Assembly (NCBI RefSeq): GCF_029263575.1
Contig: NZ_JAJUFV010000012.1
Location: forward strand, 1-32,988
Source: Microbacterium sp.
Lineage (GTDB): Bacteria; Actinomycetota; Actinomycetes; Actinomycetales; Microbacteriaceae
Direction: 5' to 3'
DNA: 32,988 nt
Shown here: positions 11,862 to 24,276 of the stretch, one piece after another
How the letters are laid out: each line of letters begins with the position of its first letter
How positions within the stretch are numbered: the first letter of the stretch is position 1
Position numbers and translations under genes: made by a program
The notes under the pieces: model-generated
Seen by the model: only the letters and a program-made list of their open reading frames with translations
Databases searched by the model: none
What the model was told of the DNA's origin: nothing

Positions 11862-12425
11862 TCAGGGGCTCCGGGTGGCGGATGCGAGCACGGACGCCGT
11901 ATCGGCGATCGTGAGCTGCGGTGGATACAGGCCCATGACGTGCAGCGCGGCGGCGTGATTCTCCGCCGTCGAGCCCGCGCAGGCGTCTGCGGCGATGGTC
12001 ACCCGGGCGCCGGCATCCGCGGCGGCCAGCGCCGTCGAGATCACACAACAGTCTGTCGAGACGCCGGTCAGGACGACCCGGGCGCCGATGCCGACGATCT
12101 CTTCCAGCGCCGACCACTTGCCGAACGTGGGCACATCGACACTCGGATGCCGCGACAGTCCGCTCGCGTCGGGAACCAGGTCGAACAGCGCATCCGTCGG
12201 CGGCTGATCGGCGAATGGCCAGGCGGTGAAGTACTCGCCCCACGAGGTCGAGCGGTCAGCGGTCGGCAGCCACCGGGTCACGAGCACGCGGTCGCCGAAG
12301 GCGTCAGCGAGGGATCGGATGCGCGGCATCACCTCCGCGAAGAACGGAGAACCCCATACAGAATCCGGCGAGGCGAAGATGTGCTGCGGGTCGACGACCA
12401 CCAGCCATCCGTCGCGCAAGGTCAT
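11862..12425 (-). CDS. Isochorismatase-like cysteine hydrolase
   Basis: 187 residues. The likely triad is present: Asp12 (VVVDPQH), Lys103 (FGKWSAL) and Cys127 (STDCCVISTA), with the family's TD.CV..TA pattern. Members hydrolyse amide, carbamoyl or vinyl-ether bonds (nicotinamidase, N-carbamoylsarcosine amidase, isochorismatase); this one cannot be assigned. The start at 12425 overlaps the permease stop (ATGA) with AGGAGG almost adjacent, so it is coupled to the permease. The open frame upstream of that ATG is a shadow of the permease gene. Lying between a permease and choline genes, it probably acts on a compound imported by the permease. Confidence 0.85.
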   Translation of the reverse strand: MTLRDGWLVVVDPQHIFASPDSVWGSPFFAEVMPRIRSLADAFGDRVLVTRWLPTADRSTSWGEYFTAWPFADQPPTDALFDLVPDASGLSRHPSVDVPTFGKWSALEEIVGIGARVVLTGVSTDCCVISTALAAADAGARVTIAADACAGSTAENHAAALHVMGLYPPQLTIADTASVLASATRSP

Positions 12426-13870
12426 GCCTCCTGCTGCCGAATCTTTCCGGCTCGCGCGAACCATGCCACCAGGAACGACAGCACGAGCGCGAAGAAGACG
12501 CCGAGGTTCGCGTAGGCCCAGTCGCCCTCGCGTCCGCCGATGAGGAACAGCAGGTATCCCTGCCAGTTGTTCCACGCAGCCTCGGCGGCGAAGTTGTTGA
12601 CGACGAGTCCCCAGCCGATCACGCTGGTGACGATCATGGTGATGATCGACGTCCAGTCCCAGGCGCCGTAGCGACCCGTGGCGTCGAACAGGGCGTTCTC
12701 GTCGTAGTCGCGTCGGCGGCGCAGGATGTCGGCGATGAGAATGCCGGCCCACGACGCGAGCGGCACACCGAGCGTGATGAGGAAAGACTGGAACGGCCCG
12801 AGAAAGTCTTCATTGCCGAACACGACGAAGATCGTGCCGAGGGTGAGGATGACACCGTCGATCGCTGCCGCGGTCGGGCGCGGAATGCGGATGCCGAGGC
12901 TGATGAGCGTCAGCCCGGACGAGTAGATGCCGAGCACGGCGCCCGAGACGAGGGCGAGCACCGCGGTCAGCAGGAACGGCACGAGCACCCAGATCGGCAG
13001 GATCGCAGCCAGCGCGCCGATCGGATCCGCCTGAACGGCGTTGAAGAGATTCTCGTCGGATCCGGCCAGCAGCAGACCGAAGATCACCAGAATGACCGGC
13101 GCGAGCGAACCGCCGATCGTGTTCCAGGCGACGATCGCGCCATCCGATGCTGTGTGTTTCTGATAGCGCGACCAGTCGGCTGCGATGTTGATCCAGCCGA
13201 GACCGAATCCGGTCATCACCATGACGAGGGCGCCGATGAGCTGGCCGAAACTGCCCTCTGGGCGAGCCATGACCGCCGCGAAGTCGATGTGCGGGAACGC
13301 GAGGATGATGTACAGGATGGTCACGGCGCCGGTGATCCACGTCAGCACCGACTGCAGCTTCATGATCGTGTGATAGCCGAGAACGGATGCCGCGACGATG
13401 AGCGCCGCGACGATCACCGTGGCGATGATCTTCAGGGCGACGCTGTCGCCGTCGCCGCCGAGCTGCGTGATGACGGTCGCGGTGGCGAGCACCGCCATGA
13501 TCGCGAGGAACGTCTCCCACCCGATCGAGGTGAGCCACGAGACGATGCCGGGCACCTTCTGGCCGTGCACGCCGAAAGCCGCGCGCGAGAGCACCATCGT
13601 CGGTGCGGAGCCGCGCTTCCCGGCGATCGCGATGAGGCCGCAGAGCAGGAACGACACGACGATGCCGATGATCGAGACGACCGTCGCCTGCCAGAACGAG
13701 ATGCCGAAGCCGAGCACGAACGACCCGTACGACATGCCGAAGACCGAGACGTTCGCCGCGAACCACGGCCAGAACAGATCACGTGGTTTCGCAGTGCGCT
13801 CGGACTCGGGAATGACCTCGATCCCGGCGCGCTCGATCAGCCCCGGCGCCGTTGCAATCTTCTCGCTCAT
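12422..13870 (-). CDS. NCS1-family purine/cytosine-type permease
   Basis: 482 residues and ~12 membrane helices. The start (ERAGIEVIPESERTAKPRDLF, followed by WFAANVSVFGMSYGSF) is characteristic of NCS1 nucleobase:cation symporters, as is WINIAADWSRYQKH in the middle. Substrates of the family include cytosine, allantoin, hydantoin, thiamine precursors and purines. It heads a leftward operon with the cysteine hydrolase (4-bp overlap) and then the choline genes. The ATG at 13870 has only a weak ribosome site. Substrate not determinable; an amide- or carbamoyl-containing compound would fit the neighbouring hydrolase. Confidence 0.87.
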   Translation of the reverse strand: MSEKIATAPGLIERAGIEVIPESERTAKPRDLFWPWFAANVSVFGMSYGSFVLGFGISFWQATVVSIIGIVVSFLLCGLIAIAGKRGSAPTMVLSRAAFGVHGQKVPGIVSWLTSIGWETFLAIMAVLATATVITQLGGDGDSVALKIIATVIVAALIVAASVLGYHTIMKLQSVLTWITGAVTILYIILAFPHIDFAAVMARPEGSFGQLIGALVMVMTGFGLGWINIAADWSRYQKHTASDGAIVAWNTIGGSLAPVILVIFGLLLAGSDENLFNAVQADPIGALAAILPIWVLVPFLLTAVLALVSGAVLGIYSSGLTLISLGIRIPRPTAAAIDGVILTLGTIFVVFGNEDFLGPFQSFLITLGVPLASWAGILIADILRRRRDYDENALFDATGRYGAWDWTSIITMIVTSVIGWGLVVNNFAAEAAWNNWQGYLLFLIGGREGDWAYANLGVFFALVLSFLVAWFARAGKIRQQEA

Positions 13871-15156: not shown

Positions 15157-16449
15157 TCAGCCCGCGAAGAAGGCCTCCGCCACGCGTGCGAGATCGTGCA
15201 GATCACTGACGCCGGCGAGCTCACGCGCGGAGTGCATCGACAGGATCGGGATGCCGATGTCGACCGTGCGGATGCCGAGGCGCGTCGCGGTGATCGGCCC
15301 GATCGTCGAGCCGCATGGCACGGCGTTGTTCGAGACGAACTCCTGCGATGAGACATCCGCCGCCTCGCACCAGTTCGCCCAGGCGGCAGCGCCGACGGCA
15401 TCGGTCGCATAGCGCTGGTTGGCGTTGATCTTCAGGATCGGGCCGGACCCGAGCAGCGGCTGCACGACCGGGTCGTGCTTGTGCGGGTAGTTCGGGTGCA
15501 CCGAGTGCCCGACGTCGCTGGAGAGGTGCCAGGATGTCGCGAACGCGCGCCGCTGTTCGGTAGCGTCTGCGCCCAACCCGCCATATGCGCGAGAGAGAAT
15601 ATCTTCCAGGAAGGGGCCGGCGGCACCAGAGCGGGACGCGGAGCCAAGCTCTTCGTGGTCGAAGGCGGCGAGCACGGCGATGCTGCCCGAACCCTTCGAC
15701 AGGCTTAGGGATCGGTCGGTGAGTGCGACAACACCGGCGTGCACCGAGGCCAGGTCGTCCAACCGTCCGGCCGCGAAGAACGCGTCGTCCTTGCCGAACA
15801 CGGCGCCGCGGGCGGAGTCTGCCACGACCGCGTCGAAGCCACGCACGTCGGCAGCGCTCACCCCGGCCGATGCGGCGAGCTCGCCCAGCAGGTCTTCGTC
15901 GGTCGGGTCGCCGATGCCCCACACCGGCTGGGTGTGCAGCTGCTTGTCCAGCGCCAGGCCGCTGTTGGCTTCGCGATCGAGGTGCACGGCGAGCTGTGGC
16001 AGGCGCAGCAGGGCGCCGGTGTCGGCGAGCACTACGCGGCCGTCGGCGAGGGCGAGGCGTCCGGCCAGGCGCAGTTCGCGATCGAGCCAGGAGTTCAGCA
16101 GCGGTCCGCCGTAGACTTCGACGCCGGCCTGCAGCCAGCCGCGCGAACCCGTCGTCGGCTTCGGCTTGAGCTTGAAACCGGGGGAGTCGGTGTGCGCGCC
16201 GAAGATGTGCGCGGGCGTCGTGGCCGTGGCATCCGTCGGCACGACCCAGGCGATCACGGCGCCGTCGCGCACGACGACGAAGCGTCCGCCCGTCTGCTCC
16301 GGCCAGGCGTCCTCTTCACTGAGGCGGGTGAACCCGGCATCCTCCAGGCGGCGGGCGACCTCGGCGGCCGCGTGATAGCTCGACGGAGAGGCGGCGACGA
16401 AATCGGCGAGATCCTCGGCGTGGGCGAGGGCTGCTGCGGTGACGACCAT
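15157..16449 (-). CDS. M18-family aminopeptidase
   Basis: 430 residues, usual for bacterial M18 enzymes (ApeB/PepC-like). Zinc and catalytic motifs: GAHTDSPGFKLKP (H86, D88), GRLDDLASV (~229-237), FDHEELGS (D264, E266, E267), DVGHSVHPNYPHKHDP, and CGSTIGPI near the C-terminus with a late MHSARE His. It removes N-terminal residues from peptides in the cytoplasm, forming a large oligomer. Residues ~245-253 (DRSLSLSKG), just before the DHEELGS motif, are encoded by a copy of a dispersed repeat (see 15691-15719). The start ATG at 16449 lies 7 bp after a TACGAT -10 box (16462-16457 on the minus strand), so the mRNA may be leaderless. Confidence 0.9.
   Translation of the reverse strand: MVVTAAALAHAEDLADFVAASPSSYHAAAEVARRLEDAGFTRLSEEDAWPEQTGGRFVVVRDGAVIAWVVPTDATATTPAHIFGAHTDSPGFKLKPKPTTGSRGWLQAGVEVYGGPLLNSWLDRELRLAGRLALADGRVVLADTGALLRLPQLAVHLDREANSGLALDKQLHTQPVWGIGDPTDEDLLGELAASAGVSAADVRGFDAVVADSARGAVFGKDDAFFAAGRLDDLASVHAGVVALTDRSLSLSKGSGSIAVLAAFDHEELGSASRSGAAGPFLEDILSRAYGGLGADATEQRRAFATSWHLSSDVGHSVHPNYPHKHDPVVQPLLGSGPILKINANQRYATDAVGAAAWANWCEAADVSSQEFVSNNAVPCGSTIGPITATRLGIRTVDIGIPILSMHSARELAGVSDLHDLARVAEAFFAG
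15691..15719 (-). repeat. Intragenic copy of the CCTGAGCCTGTCGAAGGG repeat
   Basis: Read on the minus strand, 15719-15691 gives CCGACCGATCCCTAAGCC followed by TGTCGAAGGG, nearly the same as the units at 26370-26456 (CCTGAGCCT(G/A)TCGAAGGG preceded by CGGTC or GATCGGTC). It is in frame in the M18 aminopeptidase gene and encodes DRSLSLSKG. Confidence 0.75.
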
Positions 16450-16487
16450 GCCTTCAATCGTATCCGCGCATGGCGTTCACATCGGGA

Positions 16488-16610
16488 TGTTATGGTGTCG
16501 CCCGATAGTGCCTAGGGTTCCGGGGTTCACGCCCGACTGGTCCGAGCGGCACCACGGCGGGTTCTGGTGGATCGGCCGTCATCTGACAGGACAAAAGCCC
16601 GGAGGAGCCC
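16488..16610 (+). promoter_or_regulatory. ykkC-family riboswitch (guanidine-I type) with its promoter
   Basis: An extended -10 (TGT-TATGGT, 16488-16496) precedes an aptamer at ~16508-16610. The conserved ykkC landmarks occur in order: CCTAGGGTTCCGG (16511-16523), GACTGGTCCGAG (~16535-16546), CACGGCGGG (~16553-16561) and GGACAAAAGCCCGG (16589-16602). The loop between the first two is closed by CGGG/CCCG. GACTGGTCCGAG is as I recall it in guanidine-I (subtype 1) members and differs from the ppGpp/PRPP subtypes, but subtype needs a covariance model. The downstream transporter fits guanidine export. No other riboswitch class fits. Confidence 0.85.
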
Positions 16611-16643
16611 GTCTGTCGCGCCCGCTGACAGGCAGAAGGCTCC
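16604..16643 (+). promoter_or_regulatory. Expression platform sequestering the ribosome site
   Basis: GGAGCC (16604-16609) can pair with GGCTCC (16638-16643), and CTGTC (16613-16617) with GACAG (16627-16631). This hairpin covers part of the Shine-Dalgarno AGAAGG (16634-16639) of the exporter, whose ATG is at 16645. The same GGAGCCC (16604-16610) can instead pair with GGGTTCC (16515-16521) in the aptamer. The two pairings exclude each other, which suggests ligand-dependent release of the ribosome site. No U-run is present, so control is probably translational. Confidence 0.6.
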
Positions 16644-16644
16644 C

Positions 16645-17511
16645 ATGTCTGCGCTTGCTCTCGTCCTCGTCTTCTCTGCCGCTGTCGCACACGCGGTGTG
16701 GAACATCATCGCCCACGGCATCAGCCGTGCCGGCATCGTATTCCTGTGGTGCGGTGCGGTGGCCGGCGCTGTCATCTGGGGAGCGGCGATTCCGTTCACG
16801 GGCGGGTTGCAGCAGAGCGACCTGGCGGGCTTTGCCATCGGCGTCGGGGTGTCGGGCGTGCTCCACGTCGCCTACATGCTCGTGCTGCAGCACGGTTACC
16901 GGGTGGGCAATCTCTCGACCGTGTACGCCACCGCACGCGGCAGCGGGCCGTTTCTTGCAGTGATCGCGGCGATCGTGCTGCTGGGTGAGCGGCCGTCGCC
17001 GGGCGCTCTGGTCGGGGTGCTGGCTGTCATCGCTGGCGTCGTGGCGCTCGGGCTGGTCGATCGTCCACCGCGCGGTGAGCGCCGCGGCGGTATTGACCCG
17101 TCGATCGTCTTCGGACTCCTGACCGGAGTCGCAATCGCCACCTATACGATCTGGGACACGCATGCAGTGCGGGAATGGTCGCTGGCGCCGATTCCGTACA
17201 TGGTCGGCACCTGCGTGATGGAGATCATCGTCTACTCGATCATGTTGCGCGGGCGGTGGGGTGAGACCATGGCATTCGCGCGGCGTGAGTGGCGTCGCGT
17301 CGTCGTGTTCGGGTTCCTGTCGCCGCTGTCGTACATTCTCATCCTCATCGCGGTGACGCTCGCGCCGGTGGCGCTGGTGGCTCCGCTGCGCGAGGTGAGC
17401 GTCGTGCTGGTGAGCCTGTTCGGCGTCTTCGCGTTGAAAGAGGGCAGGCCCGCCTGGCGCCTGGCCGCCGCAGCCGTCGTCGTGGCCGGTATCGTCCTGC
17501 TCGCGCTGTGA
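16645..17511 (+). CDS. EamA/DMT-superfamily transporter under a ykkC riboswitch
   Basis: 288 residues with ~10 membrane helices in two repeated EamA halves. The N-terminus (SALALVLVFSAAVAHAVWNI) and the middle helix FLAVIAAIVLLGERPSPGAL, with the family LGERP motif, are typical of drug/metabolite transporters. The second half ends RLAAAAVVVAGIVLLAL. The ATG at 16645 is preferred over one at 16567, which lies inside the riboswitch; AGAAGG is ~6 bp upstream. The DMT superfamily also contains the SMR guanidinium exporters usually found behind guanidine riboswitches, so guanidine or guanidinium-compound export is a reasonable inference. It is followed by phosphonate genes after 145 bp, with no clear link. 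Confidence 0.88.
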   Translation: MSALALVLVFSAAVAHAVWNIIAHGISRAGIVFLWCGAVAGAVIWGAAIPFTGGLQQSDLAGFAIGVGVSGVLHVAYMLVLQHGYRVGNLSTVYATARGSGPFLAVIAAIVLLGERPSPGALVGVLAVIAGVVALGLVDRPPRGERRGGIDPSIVFGLLTGVAIATYTIWDTHAVREWSLAPIPYMVGTCVMEIIVYSIMLRGRWGETMAFARREWRRVVVFGFLSPLSYILILIAVTLAPVALVAPLREVSVVLVSLFGVFALKEGRPAWRLAAAAVVVAGIVLLAL

Positions 17512-20614: not shown

Positions 20615-21442
20615 CTAACGCGACAGAACGAGCGCGGTCAGCTCGGCTCGCGTGCTGGCGCCGACCTTTCTCAGCAGATTCGAGACGTGGAACTTGACCG
20701 TGTTGGGGCTGATGCCCAGCTGCACGGCGATCGTCTGATTGCGCTCGCCGCCGGCGACCAGGCGCAGCACGTCATGCTCGCGCGCGGTCAGTGCGACGCC
20801 GTCGACGAGGGGCTCGGTGGCAGATCGCGGGTCGAGCGGAAGGCGCACGTCGACAGCTGATCCCCATCCGGGCGTGGAATCGACGCTCAGCACGCCGTCG
20901 AGCGAGGTGACGCGTTCGGCGATCGGTCGCAGCGTGTCGTCGTGCACGGTGAGATCGCCGCGTCCGTCGTCGCGGATGCTGACGAGCAGGTTCAGCCCGT
21001 CGCAGTCCCACTGCACCCGGACGCGACTGACTTCGCCGCGGTCGACCAGCCCGAGGATCGTGTTGCGCACGATGGCCCGCGCTGCGTGAGCGACCTCGCT
21101 CGGCAGTGCCCGGCCCGTCGCCGGCGGCTCGACGAACTGGATATCGAGCGTGCCGAACCGCTCGAGCGGGTGGAGGTCACGTCTGAGGCGCGCGAAGGCG
21201 CCGACGACAGGTTCGAGCATGGAGCGTTGCTGCTCATCCGCCGCCGTCCGCAGGCGCACGAGCGCCGAGGTCACGGTGTCGATCGCTGTGCGCCGCGCCG
21301 CGCGATCGTCGAGGCGCGGCGATCGCAGGATCGCGAGCAGCGATTCGAGCTCGAGAGCATGGCGATCGGCCTGGTCGGAGACGGTGCGGTCGAGATCGAC
21401 CAGGAGCTGACGCGAGCCGGACGAAGCTTCTTCGCTCATCAT
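20615..21442 (-). CDS. HATPase-LuxR fusion transcriptional regulator
   Basis: 275 residues. Residues ~1-75 are helical. From ~110 comes a histidine-kinase-type ATPase: N-box HAARAIVRNTILGLVDRG, G1-box RDDGRGDL, and a G2-like PGWGSAVDVRLPL. The last ~65 residues are a NarL/LuxR helix-turn-helix (LTAREHDVLRLVAGGERNQT, then ISPNTVKFHVSNLLRKVGAS). So an ATP-binding sensor module is joined directly to a DNA-binding domain, with no receiver domain and no obvious phospho-accepting His. ATG 21442 or the adjacent 21439 may be used (GGA upstream). The HbpS/GlcG gene lies upstream on the same strand, separated by a terminator hairpin; the pair may sense haem, redox or a small metabolite. Confidence 0.8.
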   Translation of the reverse strand: MMSEEASSGSRQLLVDLDRTVSDQADRHALELESLLAILRSPRLDDRAARRTAIDTVTSALVRLRTAADEQQRSMLEPVVGAFARLRRDLHPLERFGTLDIQFVEPPATGRALPSEVAHAARAIVRNTILGLVDRGEVSRVRVQWDCDGLNLLVSIRDDGRGDLTVHDDTLRPIAERVTSLDGVLSVDSTPGWGSAVDVRLPLDPRSATEPLVDGVALTAREHDVLRLVAGGERNQTIAVQLGISPNTVKFHVSNLLRKVGASTRAELTALVLSR

Positions 21443-23223: not shown

Positions 23224-24276
23224 ATGAGCGATCTGTGCGAACTTCTCGGCATCCGTCATCCGATTCTGCTCGGCGCGTTCGGCGGGCTGTCGTCTGTCGC
23301 GCTGACGGCCGCCGTCAGCGAGTCGGGCGGCCTCGGAGCCTATGGGCTCTACGGCTATGACGGTGCACGTATCCGCTCGACGGCGGCGGCGCTGCGTGCG
23401 GCGACGTCGGCTCCGTTCGCACTCAACATCTGGCTGCCCACGGGCGACGAGGTCGAACCCGGCCCGCAGCACACGGTGTTCGCACAGGCGCTGGAGCCGT
23501 TCTATGAGGCGGTCGGCGTTGAGATCCCAGCTCGACCGGAACGCTACCTGCCGTCGCTCGATGAGCAGTTGGAGGCGATCTGGGATGCCTCGCCCGCCAT
23601 GCTCAGCGTTGTCTACGGCGTGCCATCGGCAGACCTCGTCGACGAGGCGCATCGCCGTGGCATCCGCGTCATCGGCACGGCGACGACGGTCGCTGAAGCC
23701 GTCGCGCTCGAAGCCGGGGGAGCGGATGCGGTCATCGCCAGCGGTGCGGAAGCAGCCGGGCACCGCGTGTCGTTTCTCCGCCCGGCCGCGGATTCGCTCG
23801 TGGGAACCTTCGCGCTCGTGCCACAGGTGGCCGATGCCGTGTCGATTCCGGTGATCGCGGCCGGTGGGGTCGCCGACCGGCGCGGGGTGGCCGCAGCTTT
23901 CGCGCTGGGCGCGGCGGGGGTGCAGGTGGGCACCGCGTTCCTCGCTGCGCGGGAGTCTGCCGCGAATGACGCCCATCGCACCGCGATCCGTTCGACGGCT
24001 GCGGATGAGAGCGTGCTGACTCGCGCGATGAGCGGACGCCTGGCCCGCGGCGCTCGCAACCGAACAGTGCGCGCGATCGAGGCCAGCGGAACCATCGCGC
24101 CCTTCCCGATGCAGAACTGGCTCACCGGACGTTTCCGCGCTGCGGCAGGGGAGCAGAACCTCGGCGAGCTGCAATCGCTGTGGCTAGGTCAGGGTGCGCC
24201 GCTCGCCCGGCGTGACACGGCGTCGGAGGTGTTCGCCGAGCTGGTGGCTGGGCTGGGCAGCTCAGCCGACCATTGA
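23224..24276 (+). CDS. Nitronate monooxygenase (2-nitropropane dioxygenase family)
   Basis: 350 residues, an FMN-binding TIM barrel. The N-terminus CELLGIRHPILLGAFGGLSS is the usual family start, with SESGGLGAYG, the middle GADAVIASGAEAAGHR (family pattern Q/S-GxEAGGH), and the phosphate-binding IPVIAAGGVADRRGVAAAFA and GAAGVQVGTAFL. The C-terminal FPMQNWLTGRF is also typical. The enzyme oxidises alkyl nitronates such as propionate-3-nitronate, probably for detoxification. Transcription is likely leaderless (see 23190-23217). Family members include enoyl reductases and others, so the natural substrate is uncertain. Confidence 0.87.
   Translation: MSDLCELLGIRHPILLGAFGGLSSVALTAAVSESGGLGAYGLYGYDGARIRSTAAALRAATSAPFALNIWLPTGDEVEPGPQHTVFAQALEPFYEAVGVEIPARPERYLPSLDEQLEAIWDASPAMLSVVYGVPSADLVDEAHRRGIRVIGTATTVAEAVALEAGGADAVIASGAEAAGHRVSFLRPAADSLVGTFALVPQVADAVSIPVIAAGGVADRRGVAAAFALGAAGVQVGTAFLAARESAANDAHRTAIRSTAADESVLTRAMSGRLARGARNRTVRAIEASGTIAPFPMQNWLTGRFRAAAGEQNLGELQSLWLGQGAPLARRDTASEVFAELVAGLGSSADH

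Follow-up and report, generated by a model that had tools for sequence, protein, structure and literature searches.

ykkC-family RNAs are sorted into subtypes by a diagnostic base and by the genes that they precede. In the sections of PMC6031431 consulted, guanidine aptamers carry a conserved A46, subtypes 2a and 2b carry a pyrimidine there, and sorting by the base at position 46 alone separates guanidine gene contexts from the others. Subtype 2d comprises ykkC RNAs located before a 'phn_DUF6' transporter gene, later annotated EamA, and before TauE (consulted parts of PMC5912903 and PMC7266159), and section 16 of the latter, a 2020 review, gives 2d as the only ykkC class without a ligand. We found no later report of a 2d ligand in the literature searched, which included the available part of PMC12186494 and outside which most subscription papers fell. 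Here we analyse a 32,988-nucleotide (nt) stretch of Microbacterium sp. DNA (contig NZ_JAJUFV010000012.1; the window) in which a ykkC RNA directly precedes an EamA transporter gene. The window element adds a member to this already known orphan class, one whose neighbouring genes are unusually informative, and its link to the oxidoreductase family TIGR03364, a covarying translational platform and the promoter position are additions to the published picture of 2d. Our best explanation, to which we give a rough probability of 0.55, is that 16504–16643 encodes a ykkC RNA fitting subtype 2d that acts as a translational ON switch for EamA, with a ligand likely to come from phosphonate metabolism.

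The window RNA fits ykkC subtype 2d

An Rfam search of the window at gathering thresholds returns zero matches. At relaxed thresholds, the sole meaningful match of 16440–16700 is to RF00442 (Guanidine-I), which aligns over its full length to 16501–16606 with 46.5 bits (E 1.6e-7) against a gathering score of 63; two matches to long non-coding RNA models are weak and lie on the opposite strand. The RNA shares with Guanidine-I the P1-P2-P3 architecture and the blocks CTAGGGTTCC, CTGGTCCGAG and GGACAAAAGCC, and on sequence grounds is a real ykkC-family aptamer, far above chance. The downstream protein matches PF00892 (49.6 bits), bearing out a preliminary description of this DNA that had placed a ykkC-family riboswitch ahead of an EamA gene of the drug/metabolite transporter (DMT) superfamily. 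The four conserved blocks named in that description are all present as strings and in order (CCTAGGGTTCC at 16511–16521, GACTGGTCCGAG at 16535–16546, CACGGCGGG at 16553–16561 and GGACAAAAGCCCGG at 16589–16602), but only three are homologous to ykkC blocks: CACGGCGGG sits in P2, and TCATCTGACA is the sequence found where the true block would lie ahead of P3. The Rfam alignment sets the pre-P3 consensus CACGGagGGAu against a UCUGACAGGAC stretch; the wider junction is GUCAUCUGACAGGAC.

The preliminary description had further assigned the RNA to the guanidine-I type and named covariance scoring as a check, with a poor score to count against the assignment. The score for the guanidine subtype is poor (no separate Rfam model for 2a–2d gave a score here), and two sequence features likewise lead us to reject guanidine-I membership. 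The A46 site is C in the window and in 24/24 Microbacteriaceae copies, and CACGG before P3 occurs in 0/24 of these copies versus 10/10 guanidine-I RNAs over the cut-off, which come from a phylum sample and carry A (nine) or G (one) at the A46 site. Counts of the diagnostic base are confined to the 24 loci recovered with the Guanidine-I model, which are hence unselected for that base; the pattern scan for relatives required C there. Guanidine-I matches over the cut-off were found in 0 of the 249 sampled Microbacteriaceae genomes.

The non-A base at the diagnostic site and the EamA gene directly downstream are features described for 2d, and the downstream gene is unlike that of guanidine-I riboswitches. 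EamA directly follows the RNA in 24/24 Microbacteriaceae loci, and for the 51 strict copies among the 80 pattern loci listed, tblastn places EamA behind 44, TauE behind 5 and a contig end behind 2; the TauE/SafE genes behind 2d RNAs match PF01925 in 3/3 scanned. The nucleotide-binding subtypes 2a (ppGpp), 2b (PRPP) and 2c (nucleoside diphosphates), to which we assigned single loci by their downstream genes, share a pyrimidine at the A46 site but differ in the junction before P3 and in gene context: they directly precede amino-acid, purine, NUDIX or HAD hydrolase genes, whereas in the window EamA occupies this position and the HAD gene comes third. The RF00442 score below cut-off, C at the diagnostic base, the missing CACGG and the EamA or TauE genes downstream thus argue for subtype 2d rather than guanidine-I. 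The window RNA fits 2d by its published description rather than by base-by-base alignment with a 2d consensus, and in this comparison with published text no difference was seen.

We built a covariance model of our own, R1, from relatives found in family, phylum and pattern searches. The conserved tail GGAGGA of these RNAs runs into GGANCC, and a partner, GGNUCC, lies just upstream of the start codon. The 75 strict copies among the matches listed were reduced to 70 sequences by leaving out L072 and L132, for which no partner was found (L132 ends at a contig end), and merging three identical segments; 64 of the 70, four with trimmed 3′ ends, were aligned with MAFFT (alignment A2) and given a secondary structure by hand. 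R1 scores the window at 146.5 bits over 16502–16653, the window being one of the 64 training rows, and scores sequences outside training at 145.5 (L124), 112.4 (L072), 105.6 (L133), 70.8 (L130) and 65.9 bits (L023). Strict copies and the TauE-linked L133 reach at least 105 bits; the ten guanidine-I RNAs score 22–50 bits and the other subtype-2 RNAs tested, 2a–2c loci included, 33–63 bits, except the EamA-linked L130 and L023. Among the 249 Microbacteriaceae genomes R1 recovers the same 24 as RF00442, all with E at or below 6.4e-14, and adds a single weak match at 26.4 bits in G194. Across A2, 95.7% of cells pair and 18/36 pairs have changed on both sides. None of 500 shuffles reaches any of five measures, and slid partners pair in 31–47%. 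MAFFT sets some P4 strands one base off, and the A2 pair count probably understates P4.

Nesting within genomes encoding TIGR03364

After a gap of about 110–150 nt, EamA is followed on the same strand by genes of families TIGR03364 (FAD-dependent oxidoreductase), TIGR03351 (phosphonatase-like HAD hydrolase) and TIGR03366 (alcohol dehydrogenase), all three over their cut-offs, so that the window holds an aminophosphonate breakdown gene set. The sections of PMC10590968 consulted report that PbfD1, annotated as TIGR03364, converts N-methyl-2-aminoethylphosphonate (N-methyl-AEP) oxidatively into phosphonoacetaldehyde and methylamine, that it also oxidises AEP, releasing ammonia, and that the products of TIGR03364 enzymes include methylamine, dimethylamine or ammonia. 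From this activity we predict, by analogy, that oxidase, PhnX-like hydrolase and alcohol dehydrogenase would take an aminophosphonate in turn to aldehyde, phosphate and alcohol. In 17 of the 24 family loci an FAD gene occurs in the flanking DNA retrieved (for most loci from 4 kb upstream to 11 kb downstream), and clusters of neighbouring open reading frames, named from one representative locus, include PhnE-like proteins in 16/24 loci and PhnD-like proteins in 15/24. PhnD/PhnC/PhnE-type genes lie between EamA and the FAD gene in family loci; PhnD/PhnE-type genes are absent from the window, and its own assembly has a PhnE match on contig C47 (217.9 bits, cut-off 216.7).

The association extends across genomes. 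A 2d-like RNA is present in 24/249 Microbacteriaceae genomes and TIGR03364 in 69/249, comprising 24/24 genomes with the RNA versus 45/225 without it (Fisher 1.4e-15); by genus the counts are 14/14 versus 18/71 (p 1.2e-7), and relatedness among genomes makes these Fisher values too small. Within this sample, nesting of the RNA within TIGR03364 genomes is complete. EamA matches at E 1e-30 occur in 44/249 family genomes, including the 24 with the RNA; TIGR03364 is present in 6/20 of the others, and no ykkC RNA was found at the EamA region in the 9 of these 20 genomes that were fetched. Two of the RNA-less genomes, G045 and G072, encode close EamA orthologues (61% and 57%) with no upstream ykkC RNA detected by unfiltered R1 or Rfam searches. 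As G045 retains EamA, GntR, PhnD, PhnC, PhnE, FAD, HAD and alcohol dehydrogenase genes, EamA is tied to phosphonate genes independently of the RNA. At both loci (L190 and L191) a few bases separate a -10-like TANNNT from the start codon, an arrangement that would fit deletion of the leader and a leaderless mRNA.

A covarying platform hairpin and a putative promoter

The preliminary description had GGAGCC at the aptamer end pairing either with GGGTTCC in the aptamer or with GGCTCC over the ribosome site. The second pairing holds up: it is predicted in the window as helix P4 (16604–16609 with 16638–16643), where it would cover the GG of AGAAGG upstream of the ATG at 16645, and it covaries in relatives. 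All six P4 pairs form with the sequence's own partner in 63/70 sequences (all Watson-Crick in 30/70), compared with 31% (3.4% all Watson-Crick) of 2,624 swapped combinations in which the partner differs at the fourth base; five of six pairs form in 70/70 own and 97% of swapped combinations, and it is the full six that discriminate. Predicted pair probabilities in the window are 0.71–0.73 for P4 and 0.91–0.99 for the adjoining P5. As for the first pairing, GGAGCC-type hexamers can make five or six of six pairs, wobble included, with aptamer GGGTTCC for all ten hexamer types, and GGGTTCC is invariant in the 64 aligned sequences.

The tail GGA is invariant in A2, which suggests that it has a second role, inside the aptamer; P4 formation and use of GGA by the aptamer would then be mutually exclusive. 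Without ligand, GGAGCC at the aptamer end would pair with GGCUCC and block the ribosome; with ligand bound, the aptamer would hold the conserved tail GGA and the ribosome site would open. We predict this ON polarity by analogy with the guanidine, ppGpp and PRPP classes, which are ON switches in the consulted sections of PMC6031431.

Upstream, a TANNNT element lies 12 or 13 nt ahead of GAYAG in 75/75 loci among the matches listed, and 61/72 distinct upstream sequences have the extended -10 G. This spacing predicts that transcription starts at about the first aptamer base. Tandem 11-nt repeats of the GTTCACC type are carried by PhoP-regulated promoters (PMC4415409, consulted in part), and 16/72 related promoters have a PHO-box-like tandem 11-nt repeat of the GTTCAYC type at -39/-40, scoring at least 12/14 (0.16 expected from shuffles; 0/72 among control segments lying 300 nt upstream). 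Where present, these repeats would superimpose a response to phosphate starvation on that of the riboswitch.

A likely phosphonate-pathway ligand and its rivals

If the RNA is a switch for EamA within phosphonate metabolism, candidate ligands would include 2-aminoethylphosphonate, its N-methyl form and phosphonoacetaldehyde, and EamA might export the ligand or a side product; these are the least certain parts of the scheme. The consulted sections of PMC6031431 describe G48, C49 and C78 as holding the 5′-phosphate of PRPP, and in a hand alignment across a junction of different length, equivalents of these bases appear retained in the window RNA. A tentative extension, possible but on balance doubtful, is that 2d as a class is a phosphonate riboswitch that binds an aminophosphonate or phosphonoacetaldehyde through this phosphate-holding pocket and thereby switches on translation of EamA or TauE, which would serve as an export valve. 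We found no earlier report of a riboswitch for carbon–phosphorus (C–P) metabolism in the literature searched. If the proposal is true, RNA senses C–P compounds, and unassigned EamA and TauE transporters gain a substrate class; the nesting of RNA and aminophosphonate oxidase in one family narrows the ligands worth assaying to a short, specific list and points to well-suited test organisms.

Several observations weigh against a phosphonate-responsive switch. EamA has TIGR03340 (phn_DUF6) as its best NCBIfam match, over the whole length, and lies beside phosphonate genes, but its 101.7 bits fall well under the cut-off of 288.15. There is no nearby FAD gene in 7/24 family loci, and some loci have a GntR gene on the reverse strand after EamA, so the riboswitch may not control the cluster as a whole. 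The 45 Microbacteriaceae genomes with TIGR03364 and no RNA also count against such a switch. The phosphonate link is not replicated outside Microbacteriaceae: TIGR03364 is present in 7/17 outside genomes with 2d-like or related RNAs (7/10 with strict copies, 0/7 others), against a background in Mycobacteriaceae of 69/151, and ten scanned neighbour genes from mycobacteria, alphaproteobacteria and Nonomuraea belong to no phosphonate family. R1 finds four matches in the 151 Mycobacteriaceae genomes, three of them guanidine-I RNAs over the cut-off (G669, G692 and G322); the fourth, the sole strict 2d copy (G628), is in a genome lacking TIGR03364. If all 2d RNAs share a ligand, it may be something other than a phosphonate. 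With regard to the switch itself, folding with the aptamer tail held unpaired, in a prediction without tertiary contacts, left the ribosome site closed; the free energy does not stand out from that of shuffled sequences (z 0.42, with 127/200 shuffles as stable); and the window promoter is not among the 16/72 with a tandem repeat and so does not qualify as a PhoP promoter. To the discoverers of 2d, guanidine-I was the most similar class, and the ligand that they suggested was a small, toxic compound resembling guanidine (consulted part of PMC5912903).

The reading of the preliminary description, a guanidine-I riboswitch with EamA exporting guanidine, can draw on the shared overall fold and most blocks, on RF00442 as the sole meaningful Rfam score, and on the DMT membership of EamA with its weak match to EbrA of the small multidrug resistance proteins (21.6 bits, cut-off 160). 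We consider it very improbable given the score below gathering threshold, the C for A46 and missing CACGG throughout the 24 copies, the empty guanidine-I count in the family and the separation by R1 of the window from ten guanidine-I RNAs; the aminophosphonate neighbourhood lends the guanidine-exporter role no support. Unlikely, but to be taken seriously, is a sensor of a small amine or toxic guanidine-like cation, such as the methylamine that TIGR03364 would release from N-methyl-AEP, with EamA exporting it. The amine products of TIGR03364 enzymes favour this idea, and detoxification would fit RNAs outside Microbacteriaceae that are followed by an exporter gene alone; the idea sits poorly with the apparent retention of the PRPP phosphate-holding bases and with TauE/SafE as the alternative gene behind 2d. 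TauE/SafE is named for sulfite/anion export, which we count against an amine.

A further possibility is that the RNA reports phosphorus or nucleotide status by binding a known subtype-2 ligand (ppGpp, PRPP or nucleoside diphosphates) or inorganic phosphate. The subtype-2 base at the diagnostic site and the PHO-box-like repeat in related promoters point this way, but the gene context is unlike that of 2a–2c, R1 sets other subtype-2 RNAs apart with the exception of L130 and L023, and the window's own promoter lacks the repeat. We judge this explanation improbable.

Features of the window and related RNAs

The interval 16488–16645 highlighted in the preliminary description extends from the -10-like element to the A of the EamA ATG; this and the genes that follow are set out in Table 1. 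For EamA, no relative of solved structure was found at E 0.01.

Table 1. Coordinates of the riboswitch candidate, its expression signals and the downstream genes in the window
Feature	Position	Strand	Evidence
Extended -10-like element TGTTATGGT	16488..16496	+	Putative promoter function
ykkC aptamer, subtype 2d-like (5′ tail GATAG, P1-P1b-P2-P3, 3′ tail GGAGGA)	16504..16606	+	RF00442, R1, covariation
C at guanidine-I A46 site	16547	+	Alignment; base role from consulted sections of PMC6031431
CACGGCGGG, look-alike within P2 5′ strand	16553..16561	+	Sequence, alignments
Junction GTCATCTGACA before P3, replacing guanidine-I CACGG	16578..16588	+	Alignments
Platform hairpin, P4 16604–16609 with 16638–16643, P5 16611–16619 with 16624–16633	16604..16643	+	Folding, covariation
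AGAAGG, likely ribosome site, GG inside P4	16634..16639	+	Putative assignment
EamA transporter gene, 288 amino acids (aa), phn_DUF6-like	16645..17511	+	PF00892; TIGR03340 below cut-off
FAD-dependent oxidoreductase TIGR03364	17624..18808	+	354.8 bits, cut-off 285.1; start codon uncertain
Phosphonatase-like HAD hydrolase TIGR03351	18805..19515	+	233.5 bits, cut-off 218.9
Alcohol dehydrogenase TIGR03366	19490..20605	+	360.1 bits, cut-off 328.1; start codon uncertain

Elsewhere in the window, an M18 aminopeptidase gene (15157–16449, reverse strand) is divergent from the riboswitch, and the reverse strand also carries genes for an NCS1-type nucleobase permease (12422–13870) and a LuxR-type regulator (20615–21442). 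A gene for a nitronate-monooxygenase family protein lies at 23224–24276 on the forward strand.

Our searches also recovered other EamA-linked ykkC RNAs. A group of ten loci (A3: L062–L064, L068, L074, L094, L114, L117, L118 and L138), with named members including Acidimicrobiia, Actinomadura and Desertimonas, comprises subtype-2 RNAs before a different EamA lineage, whose best NCBIfam match is TIGR00950 with no TIGR03340 match (5/10 scanned). In these RNAs the junction GCACCUCA is followed by CCUCGAGGGG and a conserved hairpin, GUCGGCAC; they are possibly another orphan class. Four ykkC RNAs of Afipia, Bradyrhizobium and Methylobacterium (L081, L096, L111 and L135) precede a phn_DUF6-like EamA gene (3/4 scanned) and have the junction CACCCGAG; GAGA and UCUC could pair over the ribosome site, and no TIGR03364 was found in the four genomes. 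With their different junction, these alphaproteobacterial RNAs may be another class. In one same-genus genome (G106, C1:594581-595437) the EamA match falls into two overlapping segments, the gene being either broken across frames or misread. On a Mycobacterium tilburgii contig (L071) the TauE match behind a strict 2d RNA spans just 32 aa, which suggests a decayed gene.
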